The position numbers were made by a program, and so were the translations under genes. Shown here piece by piece: positions 1,812 through 13,137 of a stretch of DNA of 33,360 nt. This DNA comes from Candidatus Bathyarchaeota archaeon (lineage in GTDB: Archaea; Thermoproteota; Bathyarchaeia; Bathyarchaeales; Bathycorpusculaceae), in NCBI GenBank assembly GCA_003165195.1, contig PLSP01000055.1:1-33360 (forward strand), read 5' to 3'. The stretch's first letter is position 1. Every line of letters starts with the position of its first letter. The notes beneath the pieces are model-generated. The model saw only the letters and a program-made list of their open reading frames with translations. It searched no databases and was not told the DNA's origin.

Positions 1812-1887
1812 GGGCTCGTAGCCTAGCACGGATTAAGGTGTCGGCCTTCGGAGCCGGAGATCGTGGGTTCAAATCCCACCGGGCCCG
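1812..1887 (+). tRNA. tRNA-Arg, anticodon TCG
   Basis: A full cloverleaf can be folded by hand. The acceptor stem is GGGCTCG (1812-1818) with CGGGCCC (1880-1886) and a G discriminator at 1887. The D stem is GCCT/AGGT with GG in the loop. The anticodon stem is TCGGC/GCCGG around the loop CTTCGGA, which places TCG at 1848-1850. The T stem is GTGGG/CCCAC around TTCAAAT. There is no intron and CCA is not encoded. It decodes CGA arginine codons. It sits between the mobile-element debris and the SPFH gene; no duplicated tRNA 3' end was seen in the window. Confidence 0.95.
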
Positions 1888-5077: not shown

Positions 5078-7534
5078 CTACTTGCGTTTGAGCATGTTTT
5101 CAAGGATTGGTTTTAGTTTTGCATTTTCTGCTTGGATCTTTTCTTTGCCCAGCGCTTTTCTTTGTCCGTCGATTTCTTTGATCACTTCAGCGTAGTGTAT
5201 GCCTTCAGCGGCTGATACGTATTCAACTCGGAAGCGTTCTGGGCTCATGCCAAGTTTTGTGAGCATGCCTTTGAGGGCGTCGGTGCGTGCTTTCATCTTG
5301 TAGTTTCCGCTAATGTAGTGGCAGTCGTATGGCAAGTGGCAGGCGCCAACCAAAACCATGCCGGCTCCAAGACGCAGAGCCTCCAACACGAATTCCCGTG
5401 CGACTCTGCCGCTGCACATTACTCGAATAGCACGAACGCTTGCCGGATAGTCAAAGCGGCTGATCCCAGCTAGGTCAGCTCCTGCATAACTACACCAGTT
5501 GCACAGAATAGCGAGGATTTTTTCTTCAGGCTTGTCTTGTAGGGCAGCTCGGATTTGAGCCATTATCTGTGCATCGGTGAAGTGCATCTGTGTGATGGCG
5601 TGTTGTGGGCATTCGGCGACGCATGTTCCGCATCCGTGGCAGCTGGCTGTGATTATTTGTGAAGCTTTCCCTGGTTCCGCCTTGATGGCTCCGTAGGGGC
5701 ATTTGTCAACGCAGACTCCGCATTTCGACGTTTTGTTTTTGCATTTACTTTCGTCGACTACGGAGATGATGGGTTCAATCTTCCATTTTGGTTTGCTAAT
5801 GACTGTTGCCACTCGGGATGCTGCTCCGCTACCTTGCGAAACGCTGTATGGGATGTCTTTGAGTCCTTGGCATGCGCCTGCGTAGAAGACGCCGTCGGTT
5901 GGTGCATCCATGGGTTTGAGTTTGGGGTGAGACTCCATAAAGAAGCCGTCTGATCCCCGTGAGAGGTTAAGTATGCGTGCTATGTCCTCGGAGCCTTTTT
6001 TGGGTGTGGCAGCTGTTGCAAGCACTACCATTTCAGCTTCAACTTCGATGGGTTGACCAAGCAAAGAGTCTTCGGAGTGAAGCATTAAATTGTGGGTAAC
6101 TGGATCCTCATCTATGCGGCTTACTCGTCCTCTGATGAAGTTGACGCCTCGTTCTCTTGCACGATCGTAGAATTCTTCGTAGCCTTTTCCTGAACTTCGG
6201 ATATCCATATAGAAAACGTAGACTTCCACATCTTCTTTGTACTTCTCTTTGAGTTGCACGACATGTTTTAGTGTGTACATGCAGCAGAAGTTGCTACAGT
6301 AAGGGTACTTGTTTTTGTCTCGGCTGCCGACGCATTGGATAAATGCAATTTTGTGTGGTTTTTGACCATCCGACTGGCGAATTACTTTGCCGCCTGTGGG
6401 ACCAGCAGCTAAGATTAGTCGTTCAAACTCCATGCTGGTGATAACGTTTGGGTATTTGCCGTAGCCAAGCAGCGGCATGTCGTAGGGTAAATAAACATCG
6501 AAGCCTGTGGAGACAATTACTGCGCCTATATCGATTTCGACTTCTTCAGGTTGCTGGTTGAAGTCGATGGCTTGCCGTGCACCGCACGCCTCGGTGCATT
6601 TGAAGCATTCGATGCAGTAATCTTTGTTGACGGAGTAAATTAACGGCACGGTTTGGTCAAATGGGACACTGATGGCTTTGCGTGTGCCAAGGTTCATGTC
6701 CCATTCGTTGGGGTACTCGATTGGGCAAGCGTCTTTGCATTCGCCGCAACCCGTGCATCTTTCGGGGATGACATACCGCGGGTTTTTGCGGATTTTCGCC
6801 TTAAAGTTGCCGATGTAGCCGTCAACTTTGATTAGATCGCTGTTAGCGAAAATTGTGATGTTTGGATGCCGGGCGCAGTCGACCATTTTTGGTCCCTCAA
6901 TGCAGATGCTGCAGTCAAGGGTTGGAAAAGTCTTGTCAAGTGCCGCCATGTGTCCGCCGATGCTTTGAGTGTTCTCAAGCAGGTAAACTTTGTAGCCCAT
7001 GTCAGCTAGGTCTAGGGCTGCATTCATGCCTGCGATGCCGCCGCCGACAATGAGTGCTTTGTTGGTAACTGGCACTTCGATGGTTTGAAGTGGCTGCATC
7101 AAACGTACCTTTGCAACTGCCATTCGAACGGAGTCTTTAGCCCGGTCAGTTGCCCCCTGCGGGTCACTTTGGTGGCACCATGAAGAGAACTCTCTAATGT
7201 TAGCCATCTCGTAGAGAAACGGGTTTAGCCCTGCTTCTGAAACTGTGCGTCTAAAAGTGGGTTCATGCATTCTTGGCGAACAAGCGGCGATGACTACGCG
7301 GTTGAGTCTCTGTTCTTTTATGGCTTTTCGGATTTCTAGTTGCCCGGGGTCAGCGCATGTGTAGCGGTTTTCTTTGACGAAAACTACGTCGGGGATGGTT
7401 TTAGCGTATTCGGCAACTGCTTTGACGTCTACGGTGCCTGCGATGTTTAAGCCGCAGTGGCAAACAAAGACACCTACTCGCAGTTCTTCGGGTTTTGGTG
7501 CGTCTGGTTGTTTTGGGGTTTGTGGGGTACTCAT
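5078..7534 (-). CDS. hdrA: HdrA-MvhD fusion, heterodisulfide reductase-type flavin subunit
   Basis: An 818-residue flavin-based electron-bifurcation-type subunit. Order: an N-terminal HdrA domain (CHCG at 25-28, CADPG at 60), an FAD Rossmann motif (GGGIAG, 164-169), an inserted Cys segment (C208, C211, C220), two [4Fe-4S] motifs (C260/263/266/270 and C307/310/313/317), a second HdrA half with C413/417/418, and a further ferredoxin pair (C605/608/612 and C632/635/638/642). The C-terminal MvhD/FlpD-type domain has CNWC (678-681), MCSGRV (C707) and ACHLPYDCHY (732-740). In methanogens HdrA carries the bifurcating FAD and MvhD passes electrons from a hydrogenase or formate dehydrogenase. A fused form is known as HdrA2 in Methanosarcina. 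HdrB, HdrC and hydrogenase genes are not in the window, so partners must be elsewhere. The start overlaps the upstream polyferredoxin stop (ATGA). Confidence 0.92.
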   Translation of the reverse strand: MSTPQTPKQPDAPKPEELRVGVFVCHCGLNIAGTVDVKAVAEYAKTIPDVVFVKENRYTCADPGQLEIRKAIKEQRLNRVVIAACSPRMHEPTFRRTVSEAGLNPFLYEMANIREFSSWCHQSDPQGATDRAKDSVRMAVAKVRLMQPLQTIEVPVTNKALIVGGGIAGMNAALDLADMGYKVYLLENTQSIGGHMAALDKTFPTLDCSICIEGPKMVDCARHPNITIFANSDLIKVDGYIGNFKAKIRKNPRYVIPERCTGCGECKDACPIEYPNEWDMNLGTRKAISVPFDQTVPLIYSVNKDYCIECFKCTEACGARQAIDFNQQPEEVEIDIGAVIVSTGFDVYLPYDMPLLGYGKYPNVITSMEFERLILAAGPTGGKVIRQSDGQKPHKIAFIQCVGSRDKNKYPYCSNFCCMYTLKHVVQLKEKYKEDVEVYVFYMDIRSSGKGYEEFYDRARERGVNFIRGRVSRIDEDPVTHNLMLHSEDSLLGQPIEVEAEMVVLATAATPKKGSEDIARILNLSRGSDGFFMESHPKLKPMDAPTDGVFYAGACQGLKDIPYSVSQGSGAASRVATVISKPKWKIEPIISVVDESKCKNKTSKCGVCVDKCPYGAIKAEPGKASQIITASCHGCGTCVAECPQHAITQMHFTDAQIMAQIRAALQDKPEEKILAILCNWCSYAGADLAGISRFDYPASVRAIRVMCSGRVAREFVLEALRLGAGMVLVGACHLPYDCHYISGNYKMKARTDALKGMLTKLGMSPERFRVEYVSAAEGIHYAEVIKEIDGQRKALGKEKIQAENAKLKPILENMLKRK

Positions 7535-8466
7535 TGAGCTTTCGCCTCCATGGCAAATCTTTTTGCAACAGCTTTACGCCTGCTTTCACTAGCCAACGCT
7601 CTTAGTTCTTTCGCGGCGTCAGCGGGAGATGTTAGTCTTTCCAGGGCTTTGTTCCATGTCCCCGAGCGTACTGGCGTGTGATGCACTTCTGAGCGTTTTA
7701 CAGTTAACGCTTCAGGAACTGGGCAAACGTTTTTGCATGCCCCACAGAATGTGCAGAATAATTGGTTAGCGTGAATTTTCTGGTCTTGTCCAAGCGTTAA
7801 CGCATCGGGGATTGGGCAAACGTCTTGGCAATCTTTGCAGCCTTCAGGACACTTTTCCGCGTTGATAGCGATTATGCCTTCAAGGGCTTTTTTGACTTTT
7901 AAAGTTCCCGGGGCGCATTTAACCTCGCATACCTTGCAGGTTGGGCAATACTCTTTTTGGATGTCAATTTTTATTTGAACTCGCTTTTTCTCGTTAGGAG
8001 TTAGGGCATGGATATTTTCTACGGTGTTGCCGTCGAAGCCTACTTTTGAGATTTTTATGAGGCTTAATGGACAGACATCTTGGCACTTGATGCATTCCTT
8101 TTCGCATTGATTCGTGTCCACTTCTATATCTCGAATCAGTTGTGGATAACTATCTTTCTCCAGCAAGGCGAGGTCATGTGAACCGTTGAGGGTAACTTTT
8201 ATGGCGCCATAGGGGCAGGTTACATCGCAGACGCCGCAGAAATTGCATTTTGCCAAGTCAATATCCACTTTAGCTCGTTTAGCCGGCGTACCCTGAGTTT
8301 TTGGTTGTTTCACCGTTTTCACGGCTTCTTTTGGGCAAGCCAACGTACAGATTTGGCAGCCGACGCAGCGGTTTTTGTCAAGAGTTAATTTGTAATTTTT
8401 AACTTGCAAAACCCACTCTAATGTTAGCGCATCTGGCGCGTCTTTCTTTATTGTTTTTAACGGCAT
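7531..8466 (-). CDS. Polyferredoxin with six [4Fe-4S] motifs
   Basis: The 311-residue protein has six C-x2/3-C-x2-C-x3-C motifs, starting at C34, C74, C121, C174, C206 and C238, hence up to six [4Fe-4S] clusters. Motifs three and five have the longer C-x3-C first spacing. The last ~60 residues are Cys-free, helical and basic. There is no signal peptide or membrane helix, so it is cytoplasmic. It overlaps the following hdrA-mvhD by four bases, so the two are translationally coupled. It probably acts as the electron-wire partner of that HdrA, in the way MvhB-like polyferredoxins accompany Hdr/hydrogenase complexes. The exact orthology is not known. Confidence 0.85.
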   Translation of the reverse strand: MPLKTIKKDAPDALTLEWVLQVKNYKLTLDKNRCVGCQICTLACPKEAVKTVKQPKTQGTPAKRAKVDIDLAKCNFCGVCDVTCPYGAIKVTLNGSHDLALLEKDSYPQLIRDIEVDTNQCEKECIKCQDVCPLSLIKISKVGFDGNTVENIHALTPNEKKRVQIKIDIQKEYCPTCKVCEVKCAPGTLKVKKALEGIIAINAEKCPEGCKDCQDVCPIPDALTLGQDQKIHANQLFCTFCGACKNVCPVPEALTVKRSEVHHTPVRSGTWNKALERLTSPADAAKELRALASESRRKAVAKRFAMEAKAQ

Positions 8467-8748: not shown

Positions 8749-8823
8749 TTCTTTTTGTGTATAGGTTTTTGTTGTAAATAGTAGGGCCCTCTCCCGTCTC
8801 AGTGAAATGCTTGTTTTGGGTTG

Positions 8824-8940
8824 CTTTTTTGGTTTAGCGTTTGATTCGGTTTCTGGTTAGGGTGAAAAAAGGCGTAAAAAGGCGTTTAAAGACACAGAAA
8901 GACATTAAAATACAGGAAAAGACAAAAAAAGGCGCTATCC
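8824..8940. repeat. Intergenic phased A-tract element, copy 1
   Basis: A T-rich stretch (CTTTTTTGG at 8824) precedes GTGAAAAAAG at 8862. Then units of exactly ten bases follow, each of form G(G/A)C-N-N-N/A-AAA, with the GGC/GAC/TAC marks at 8871, 8881, 8891, 8901, 8911, 8921 and 8931. A-tracts therefore recur once per helical turn, which predicts intrinsically curved DNA. Ten is not a multiple of three, so the pattern is not a coding repeat. The same element recurs at 12641-12735. Confidence 0.75.
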
Positions 8941-8981
8941 TAAAATGCAGTTAACATAGTGGGTAAAAGCCAAAAGAAAAA

Positions 8982-10697
8982 TTAACTTTGCATTGGCTGC
9001 CGCTTCTCGCCGCCGGCATCGTTGTTGCTTCTGCAGAGTCTACGCATGAACCCTAAGGGAACCTTCAAGATCGCTGAGATTACGCCTAAACTTGAAAGCA
9101 TCTTTTGAATGTTATCCAAGTCACTTCGGTTGACGGCGCCGATTAGGGGGGCACTGACTAGGAAAATCAATGCGAAAGCGGCAAAGCCAAGAATAAGAGT
9201 AAACAGATAAGGCAACTTTAGAAGGCTAACAAAGACGTATGTTACAGCGGCTGCTAAGAGGGATGCAGCAAAGATCTTGGCTGAAGAGCCGAAGTCTGCT
9301 TTAGCGTCATAGTTTTTCCAGCTCCAATGAAGCGCCCAAACAACTTGAGGAAGCGTCGCGACTAAACTTCCAATTATGCCTCCGATCACAGCATATTGTG
9401 CTCCGCCAATCTGGAAGAAATACATAATTATAAGATAGGCAAGCGGCAAGCCAATGACAAGAGACGCAACGCTTTGCCACATGACTTGACGTGTTTTTTT
9501 GATTCCAGTCTGGAAGGTACCTACAGAAATGTTGCCGACTAGAACCAGCAAATTCACCGAGCATGAAAGCGCCAAGAACAAAGGACCATAAGGATACTTA
9601 GGAGCAGCGTCAACGACAAACAAAGAACGAAAAAGTCCATCAAGTGGGAACAGAGTATTGATCAAAGGAGTAGAAAGCGCCACTAAAAGCATCGTTGCAG
9701 GCACCAGCAGCAATGCTGTATACTTAACTGAGGAAGCAAAAACCGTTTTTATTAGACCAGGTTCTTTTTCTGGATCAATTTTAGAGAAAACCGGAAACAA
9801 AGCTGTCGCAACAGGGAAAGAAATGAAGGATAAAAGAACAGCGAAGTAACCTGCAACGTAGTAGTTACCCATCATCCAGCCGAATTTGTGTCCATCAAGC
9901 AAATCTCCTTTTCCCGCGTAAATTGCCATTGAGAAAGCGACAACTTGAGGAATCACACCAATCACAATGCTTGACACCGTTAAGGGCAAACCATAATCTA
10001 ACATTGGCCTTAAAGTTCGTTTTATGTCGCATTTACCTACTTTGCATTTTGCTAAAGGCCTAAACAACACGAAATAGACCAACAGAATAGCTATGACCCC
10101 GCCAACAAGAGTTGAAACCACGGTGGCGTATATTGCGCCTAGTACGCCAAAACCAATAATAATTAACACAGGACCCAACGCGGCCTTTACAAACGCTTGA
10201 AGAATTTGAGTTAAACTGTTGAGTTTCATTCGCTCAAAACCCACAAAAATGCCGCCTGCAGCCGCAGCAAGAGCACCAGCGAATACGGAAATGGACATTA
10301 TGGATATGTAAGTAGTTAAGTCGCCGACATTGTTGGGGCTAAGGATGTAAGCTAATGGCTCAGCCACTGCAAAGCAAATAACAGATAAAACCACACCAGT
10401 AATTATTTCGAAAATTACTCCCGAATAAATAACATCATGAATCTCTGACTCTTTCCCAGCAGCTCTTAAACTGGCTATTCGCTGGGTTAAAGCAGAGCTA
10501 ACACCCCAATCCCGAAAGAAACTGATTATTGATGACGGTATCAAAGCCGTACCGTACAAACCTACATCGCTAGCCGGCAGCATGCTCGCTATGACAAGCG
10601 TGCCAACAGCCAACACAATTGTAGATAAGGCGACACCGATTAGTAGGTAAAAGCTTCCAGTTGCTGAAGACTTACCCATCTCAAAGGCTTTATCCAT
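8982..10697 (-). CDS. Polysaccharide/lipid-linked oligosaccharide flippase (Wzx-like, MOP superfamily)
   Basis: The 571-residue, very hydrophobic protein has about 14 predicted membrane helices. Its start is typical of MOP-superfamily flippases (an AFEMGKSSATGSFYLLIGVA helix, then ASMLPASDVGLYG and FRDWGVSSALTQRIASLRAA). A central FPVATALFPVFSKI motif is typical of archaeal and bacterial Wzx/RfbX-like proteins. It ends with a basic cytoplasmic tail. Such proteins move lipid-linked glycans across the membrane for N-glycosylation or surface polysaccharide. No glycosyltransferase genes are adjacent. ATG 10697 follows a TATA box and an AAAGAAAGG-type leader. Confidence 0.85.
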   Translation of the reverse strand: MDKAFEMGKSSATGSFYLLIGVALSTIVLAVGTLVIASMLPASDVGLYGTALIPSSIISFFRDWGVSSALTQRIASLRAAGKESEIHDVIYSGVIFEIITGVVLSVICFAVAEPLAYILSPNNVGDLTTYISIMSISVFAGALAAAAGGIFVGFERMKLNSLTQILQAFVKAALGPVLIIIGFGVLGAIYATVVSTLVGGVIAILLVYFVLFRPLAKCKVGKCDIKRTLRPMLDYGLPLTVSSIVIGVIPQVVAFSMAIYAGKGDLLDGHKFGWMMGNYYVAGYFAVLLSFISFPVATALFPVFSKIDPEKEPGLIKTVFASSVKYTALLLVPATMLLVALSTPLINTLFPLDGLFRSLFVVDAAPKYPYGPLFLALSCSVNLLVLVGNISVGTFQTGIKKTRQVMWQSVASLVIGLPLAYLIIMYFFQIGGAQYAVIGGIIGSLVATLPQVVWALHWSWKNYDAKADFGSSAKIFAASLLAAAVTYVFVSLLKLPYLFTLILGFAAFALIFLVSAPLIGAVNRSDLDNIQKMLSSLGVISAILKVPLGFMRRLCRSNNDAGGEKRQPMQS

Positions 10698-12640: not shown

Positions 12641-12735
12641 TTGTCGTTTTTTTGGTTTGGGATTCTAACTTTTTGCAGTTAGAGTGAAAAAAGACATAAA
12701 AAGGCGTTTAAAGACACGAAAAGACAGGGAAGGTG
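12641..12735. repeat. Intergenic phased A-tract element, copy 2
   Basis: It has the same architecture as 8824-8940: a T-rich stretch (GTTTTTTTGGTTT), GTGAAAAAAG at 12684, then 10-bp units with GAC/GGC marks at 12693, 12703, 12713 and 12723. The segment GGCGTTTAAAGACAC is identical in both copies and at the same offset (19 bp) from GTGAAAAAAG. The array runs straight into the start of the double AbrB-like gene. Confidence 0.75.
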
Positions 12736-13137
12736 AAGCCTGAAATGCCGCTTACTGAACAGGAAACATTCAAAACTAAACTCCAAAGCCAAAGACGAAT
12801 TGTTATCCCTTCGCTTTTGCGGTGGCGATACAAGATGGAGTCGGGCGAACTGTTAAGAATCCGCCTAAAACTCTTCGAGCAAGGAAGCTATGGAGAAGAA
12901 AGTTTTTTGGCAAAAACAGGCGCTGACATGCGCTTAACAGTGCCTAAACTCACCATGGAAATCCTCGAGAAAAAACACGAAAAACATCTTACAGGTGCAA
13001 TATTCGAAGTAACACTCTGGCCCGCACCACAAGAAACCTCCCACTCAGATGAAGCAGCCCCTCAAAGTATTCAATCAGAACTATTAGGAAGAATAAAAGA
13101 CACCAGAAGCACCCTAAGTCAGGAAAAAGAAAAATGA
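12733..13137 (+). CDS. Double AbrB/SpoVT-like swapped-hairpin protein
   Basis: The 134-residue product contains two segments with the AbrB-like beta-hairpin pattern. The first is about residues 13-47 (FKTKLQSQRRIVIPSLLRWR, then ESGELLRIRLK). The second is about 58-97 (FLAKTGADMRLTVPKLTMEI, then TGAIFEVTLWP). Both keep the (R/V)-(I/T)-x-(I/V)-P turn typical of the fold. A polar C-terminal tail follows. A tandem within one chain would give an intramolecular pseudo-dimer that may bind DNA. Its start (GTG 12733, or ATG 12745) lies at the edge of the phased A-tract element. Autoregulation through that element is a testable guess. There is no PIN toxin beside it. Confidence 0.55.
   Translation: MKPEMPLTEQETFKTKLQSQRRIVIPSLLRWRYKMESGELLRIRLKLFEQGSYGEESFLAKTGADMRLTVPKLTMEILEKKHEKHLTGAIFEVTLWPAPQETSHSDEAAPQSIQSELLGRIKDTRSTLSQEKEK

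Follow-up and report, generated by a model that had tools for sequence, protein, structure and literature searches.

Putative operator arrays with one box per helical turn before genes for RIFT-barrel-like proteins in Bathyarchaeia

The closest described systems to the repeats analyzed here are the binding sites of MraZ, a bacterial division-cluster regulator. According to two reports, the MraZ core site of Mollicutes is (AAAGTGKN3)3, i.e. direct repeats with a 10-nt period (PMC5282649), and in Burkholderia cenocepacia four 7-nt repeats with 3-nt spacers are located before mraZ and overlap the transcription start (PMC7761207). The arrays described below share with this system 10-bp direct-repeat boxes directly upstream of their own gene (33 of 37 loci), and the layout of the MraZ unit, AAG-TGK-N4, is close to the AAG-RCR-N4 found here. 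However, the protein is archaeal and shorter, its family profile compares with MraZ at an E-value of 0.54, and none of the four members scanned matched a MraZ model in NCBIfam. The arrays are also longer than those of MraZ, the boxes differ between paralogues and many arrays are solo. The best-supported view is that the system, which resembles MraZ arrays in period, position and placement, would work like MraZ, and that it is not a MraZ by sequence.

Swapped-hairpin regulators of the AbrB/SpoVT/MazE type, of which AbrB recognizes TGGNA sites, form a second point of comparison. The likeness consists of a half-domain motif (RIxIPxxIRW..KL...LKV in the present family), of weak matches to AbrB chains (E-values of 0.065–0.086), and of scores of 12.3 and 11.9 bits with the NCBIfam AbrB model TIGR01439 in two of the four members scanned. 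In contrast to these regulators, the family stays below the curated cut-off (28.3 bits) and carries two similar halves in one chain. By eye, no shared toxin partner was seen among 17 gene-bearing loci, and a toxin-antitoxin pair was dropped as a candidate for this reason. A third comparison is with the RIFT barrel of PDB entry 2GLW, which we take to be PhS018 of Pyrococcus horikoshii, a hypothetical protein of 92 amino acids. The family profile matches it at an E-value of 9.3e-6 over the whole barrel (positions 7–82 of 92), both halves being aligned. The deposit name gives no function, and we know of no operator array for 2GLW/PhS018. PhS018 has been termed a RIFT-fold protein (PMC11258233). 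Titles and abstract openings in the literature yielded no description of such arrays in Bathyarchaeia, a weak negative since subscription papers were mostly beyond reach.

The window, i.e. the whole stretch of 33,360 nucleotides analyzed here, belongs to a 3.16-Mb Bathyarchaeia genome (G000); G017 and G024 are genomes of the same genus. The features concerned are listed below in window coordinates.

8766..8860, + strand: left block of a solo copy; contains the T-rich core TTGTTTTGGGTTGCTTTTTTGGTTTAG (approximately 8812-8838) and is also present in other copies
8861..8934, + strand: the 10-bp array noticed first, eight GRCR-type boxes, without intact gene behind
8945..8959, + strand: gene-start remnant ATG CAG TTA ACA TAG, the stop being the fifth codon, where the relative has its gene
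12681..12736, + strand: second array of the same box type (GRCR), ending 8 bp before a start codon (lag-10 p of 0.0015 over the 75 bp upstream of that codon)
12745..13137, + strand: open reading frame for a member of the tandem AbrB-like / RIFT-barrel-like family (130 aa, counted from the ATG)

A preliminary description of this DNA had reported seven marks exactly 10 bp apart. This spacing is confirmed (GGCG at 8871, GGCG at 8881, GACA at 8891, GACA at 8901, TACA at 8911, GACA at 8921 and GGCG at 8931), and GGTG at 8861 adds an eighth mark to the phased series. Written in 10-bp units from 8861, the array reads GGTGAAAAAA GGCGTAAAAA GGCGTTTAAA GACACAGAAA GACATTAAAA TACAGGAAAA GACAAAAAAA GGCG. 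Its lag-10 identity is 0.69, versus 0.37 +/- 0.05 in dinucleotide shuffles, a value reached in none of 20,000 shuffles. It is the top 74-bp stretch of the entire window at lag 10, and the runner-up, at 12685 (0.48), is a relative of it. The same description saw in this spacing a constraint on DNA shape or protein binding, and not on coding. A non-coding constraint on the helix, for which protein binding is the simplest account, is supported, as shuffles do not reproduce the pattern and further copies exist in the genome. It did not notice that genes of a RIFT/AbrB-like family begin directly behind such arrays, nor that the window contains an open member of this family 3.8 kb away. Positions 8766-8934 are 95% identical to the repeat consensus, and the best reading of 8861-8934 is a solo copy, that is a promoter-plus-operator block with a broken gene. 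Since the array of the 12745 gene is of the same box type, the 12745 protein could still bind 8861-8934.

The genome-wide search for the phased box that had been proposed earlier was productive. Three tandem AAAGRCRN3 units with at most one mismatch gave 66 overlapping matches at 17 sites, two of them in the window, and none with a reversed control pattern; only this strict count is used, because the control itself produces 37 matches once three mismatches are allowed. The same block precedes the array at 14 of the 17 sites. Block and array together measure about 170 bp, start near TTTTGTTGTAAA and contain the T-rich core TTGTTTTGGGTTGCTTTTTTGGTTTAG. The C160 copy retains the left part, and its short array includes an assembly gap; the C25 copy and the window copy at 12690 are diverged. 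The flanks of the array copies are mostly unrelated. A stretch to the right of the window array (about 9020-9125), which reaches into the 3' end of a flippase-like frame (8982-10697, - strand), recurs beside the array copy of C59 (right flank, L035); with this shared right flank, the two copies look like a larger segmental duplication.

The exact GRCR box is nearly confined to the window's genome, with one or two isolated matches in 2 of 99 other genomes. The idea that copies would be found in related genomes was thus borne out for the layout, which is present with other boxes, but hardly for the exact box. The T-rich core is more widespread, occurring in 13 of 120 genomes when two mismatches are allowed. 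In the species collection the exact core pattern occurs in four stretches from three genomes, all Ca. Bathyarchaeota. A viral origin was rejected. The exact core pattern occurs in no viral contig, a pattern search with the family protein of the window against viral sequences matched 22 stretches, none of which was confirmed, and phage records searched with one family protein gave nothing at E<=0.01. Searching from the core revealed arrays with the same period and register and different boxes, of at least seven types. G000 has, in addition, GCGTG, GCCT/GTTC and GTAT/GAAC boxes, and G017 has GACA, GTCT, GACT, GGAA, GCGTT and GTAT boxes. Lag 10 is significant (p<0.05) at 34 of 37 core sites in G000 and at 23 of 34 in G017, the core pattern being loose (up to 5 mismatches), so that some array-less sites are probably not true cores. 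Aligned in one register, the units take the form NNGBBBNNNN, in which a near-constant G is followed by an array-specific triplet. The A-run that had been described in each unit is a property of the GRCR type; as a general feature it does not stand, as arrays with GCGTG, GCCT and GTC boxes keep the 10-bp register without phased A-tracts.

The genome carries six matches to the protein family, of which three are full length and open. The family is patchily distributed: matches occur in 16 of 120 genomes of relatives at E<=1e-3, across the class in 25 of 256 genomes at E<=1e-8, and in a phylum sample in 9 of 398 genomes at E<=1e-6, all within the same order. A Pfam scan of four members gave no match at E<=1, and an AlphaFold prediction from one family sequence had a pLDDT of 41.

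Loci were picked by protein, and the 75 bp before the start codon were scored at lags 5-15. The main set of 27 loci derives from the 28 matches that have a locus and begin within the first nine model positions, with L174 (contig end) left out; matches without a locus or starting deeper in the model were excluded. Lag 10 was the best of lags 5-15 at all 27 loci and significant (p<0.05) at 25 of them. Mean identity was 0.46 at lag 10 versus 0.26–0.30 at each other lag, and the lag-10 mean in the region 150–225 bp upstream of the same loci was 0.275. Ten more loci of the class gave a lag-10 peak in six cases and p<0.05 in six. Among the starts of 125 ORFs of at least 200 aa in the retrieved stretches of the same genome, taken as control, 12 peaked at lag 10 and 2 had p<0.05. 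In total, lag 10 is on top at 33 of 37 protein-defined loci versus 12 of 125 ordinary starts, these 37 loci spanning three families of the order and being partly non-independent (G064/G083 and G043/G171 are near copies). Four of the 37 have no lag-10 peak and six have p>=0.05; counted among the four is G158, where the match began at model position 34 and the start was mis-extrapolated. The arrays end at the presumed ribosome-binding site, and they are also found before diverged homologues that are the single family match of their genome. A TATA-like motif is present in 12 of the 37 upstream regions and in none of the five of G000, and a promoter motif was set aside as an explanation on the strength of this low count. 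In summary, the arrays are real and occur in three families of a single Bathyarchaeia order, where they immediately precede the starts of these genes; their 10-bp register is kept under sequence drift, and their boxes differ by locus.

We propose, with a probability of roughly 0.7, that the array is a putative operator with one box per helical turn for the RIFT-barrel-like (tandem AbrB-like) protein whose gene follows immediately in the copies that have one. The boxes would lie on one face of the DNA, and protomers may line up along the array, one per box. As the array extends to the ribosome-binding site, protein bound over this stretch would repress its own gene. Box and binding loop would evolve together. 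Counting against this reading are the lack of Pfam matches and the sub-threshold AbrB scores of the members scanned, the loci without a lag-10 peak, the small number of TATA-like motifs, the patchy distribution of the gene and, as described below, the non-significant tree-corrected test of loop and box and the random orientation of core sites relative to neighbour genes. Such an operator would give the orphan group of 2GLW relatives a function that can be tested, and predicts a link between the RIFT barrel and sequence-specific DNA reading. It would be an archaeal counterpart of the MraZ box array and provide natural protein-box pairs, some within one genome, from which a simple recognition code might be deduced, and a dispersed intergenic repeat of Bathyarchaeia could now be given a name. 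A bolder generalization, which we consider doubtful, is that Bathyarchaeia possess fast-diversifying single-chain RIFT-barrel repressors that read a fixed G and a loop-set triplet per turn. Paralogues would own orthogonal triplets (GRCR, GCGTG, GTAT; GTCT, GACA, GACT, GGAA), and solo arrays might serve as genome-wide sites or decoys.

A correspondence between protein and box is apparent in a loop of the protein. At least two phased GTC boxes precede 14 of 16 genes for proteins with a GNR loop versus 1 of 19 others (Fisher 7e-7); this count covers 35 of the 36 loci in the protein table, one fragment of fewer than 55 residues being dropped. The two GNR exceptions are G179, without array, and G083:C28, with a single GTC. 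An earlier count by G column, on 36 of the 37 loci (G158 omitted), had given TC-dominant boxes in 10 of 16 GNR proteins versus 1 of 20 others, and had mis-phased some loci (e.g. G004:C144 and G116). On the tree, loop state and box state each need seven changes. Supported branches yield three independent pairs. On average, the box follows the loop in 1.6 of them and shows no difference in 1.4, and in none does it go in the other direction, a result that is not significant and of low power. The co-variation is strong, but its independence from descent is unproven, since this tree-corrected test is not significant. Neighbour genes suggest that G000:C22:31022 and G017:C35:60535 are one locus in two genomes. 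Their box phases 2-3 agree at 14 of 14 positions versus 7 of 28 for linker phases 6-9, in an alignment by a box register that we chose ourselves and that favours the box figure. The strong divergence of protein and box between the same neighbours may reflect fast evolution or paralogue replacement.

Most arrays of G000 have no intact gene behind. These solo arrays, including 8861-8934, could be what is left of duplicated genes, decaying and no longer functional, the gene-bearing copies alone being operators. This is compatible with the main reading, and we rate its chance as somewhat below even. It would account for the gene-start remnants similar to 8945-8959 that are found behind several solo copies, although other copies have none. 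At the core sites, 33 of 36 of which do not overlap an ORF of at least 90 aa, orientation relative to the neighbour genes shows no preference (14 ++, 7 --, 7 -+ and 7 +- among the 35 sites with both neighbours). This is in line with relics, and a regulon at the neighbouring genes was rejected on the same observation. Against mere decay, several type-1 arrays, at sites picked by array pattern, have stayed sharp with no recognisable gene remnant behind them. In addition, 13 type-2 copies, obtained from the core search, grouped by the letters of their first array units and with no intact full-length gene found, vary at 28 of 500 box positions versus 116 of 746 linker positions (p 0.002), about one third as much, although incomplete drift could explain part of this difference and the copies are partly array-picked. 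With the three least alignable copies removed, the figures are 14/388 versus 67/582 (p 0.009). This conservation of box columns lends moderate support to a continued use of solo arrays as putative binding sites.

The boxes might instead act in the mRNA leader, where a multimer would bind repeated triplets in RNA and block translation or cause attenuation, in the manner of TRAP. TRAP acts on GAG/UAG repeats in RNA, and the G-led triplets, their large number and the end of the arrays at the presumed ribosome-binding site would suit such a mechanism. Reconstructed RIFT, DPBB and DZBB proteins also are reported to interact with ssRNA as well as DNA (PMC11258233). We nevertheless judge this alternative improbable, as a period of 10 fits one face of duplex DNA, no other lag between 5 and 15 is prominent, and the profile relatives AbrB and MraZ are DNA binders. 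An RNA family as identity of the array was rejected, Rfam at gathering thresholds finding in the window only the tRNA gene at 1812-1887 (+ strand).

About equally small is the chance that the block is a mobile, MITE-like repeat whose array would hold the sites of a mobilising enzyme; the position before the gene family would then reflect how the repeat arose and not what it does. A block common to many copies with mostly unrelated flanks, and the patchy presence in 25 of the 256 class genomes, would be expected of such an element; however, no terminal inverted repeats were seen by eye, and the arrays before diverged homologues in single-match genomes also speak against it.

The operator reading is also to be weighed against the strong curvature claimed in the preliminary description. 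This is indeed predicted for the window array, only 0.75% of window 74-mers (sampled every 25 bp) being equally or more curved in a wedge model. As a common property it fails, since curvature is significant (z < -2) at 8 of the 37 protein-defined loci, one of these eight being without array, and the median z is -0.56. With so few curved loci, curvature seems to be a by-product of the A-rich linkers that certain box types carry. Intrinsic curvature, or a role of phased A-tracts in placing histones or nucleoid proteins, as had been suggested for the array, is very unlikely as a general explanation in view of these 8 loci versus 33 with a lag-10 peak and of the box types that keep register without phased A-tracts.

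Some further observations concern the surroundings of the arrays. PIN-like frames, recognized by eye only, occur near three of the 17 gene-bearing loci. On the - strand of the window, 5078-8466 encodes adjacent 4Fe-4S and FlpD/FAD/4Fe-4S proteins, which resemble a heterodisulfide-reductase-type redox module (name inferred). G000 also has a second dispersed family (loci L076-L095, e.g. L076:1715-2183 and L079:1661-2052), made of tandem rows of hairpins with units like TATTTACctatagaaacttgatGTAAATAGTAGACCCCTATCCC, often 65–100 bp apart. Fifty-five different units were extracted, and variants of the stem retain pairing (ATTTTAC/GTAAAAT, TATTTG/CAAATA). The type-1 array element carries, at its left end, a GTAAAWAGTAG..CCC motif similar to this hairpin family; the hairpin row of L091 runs into a core with a GCGTG array.
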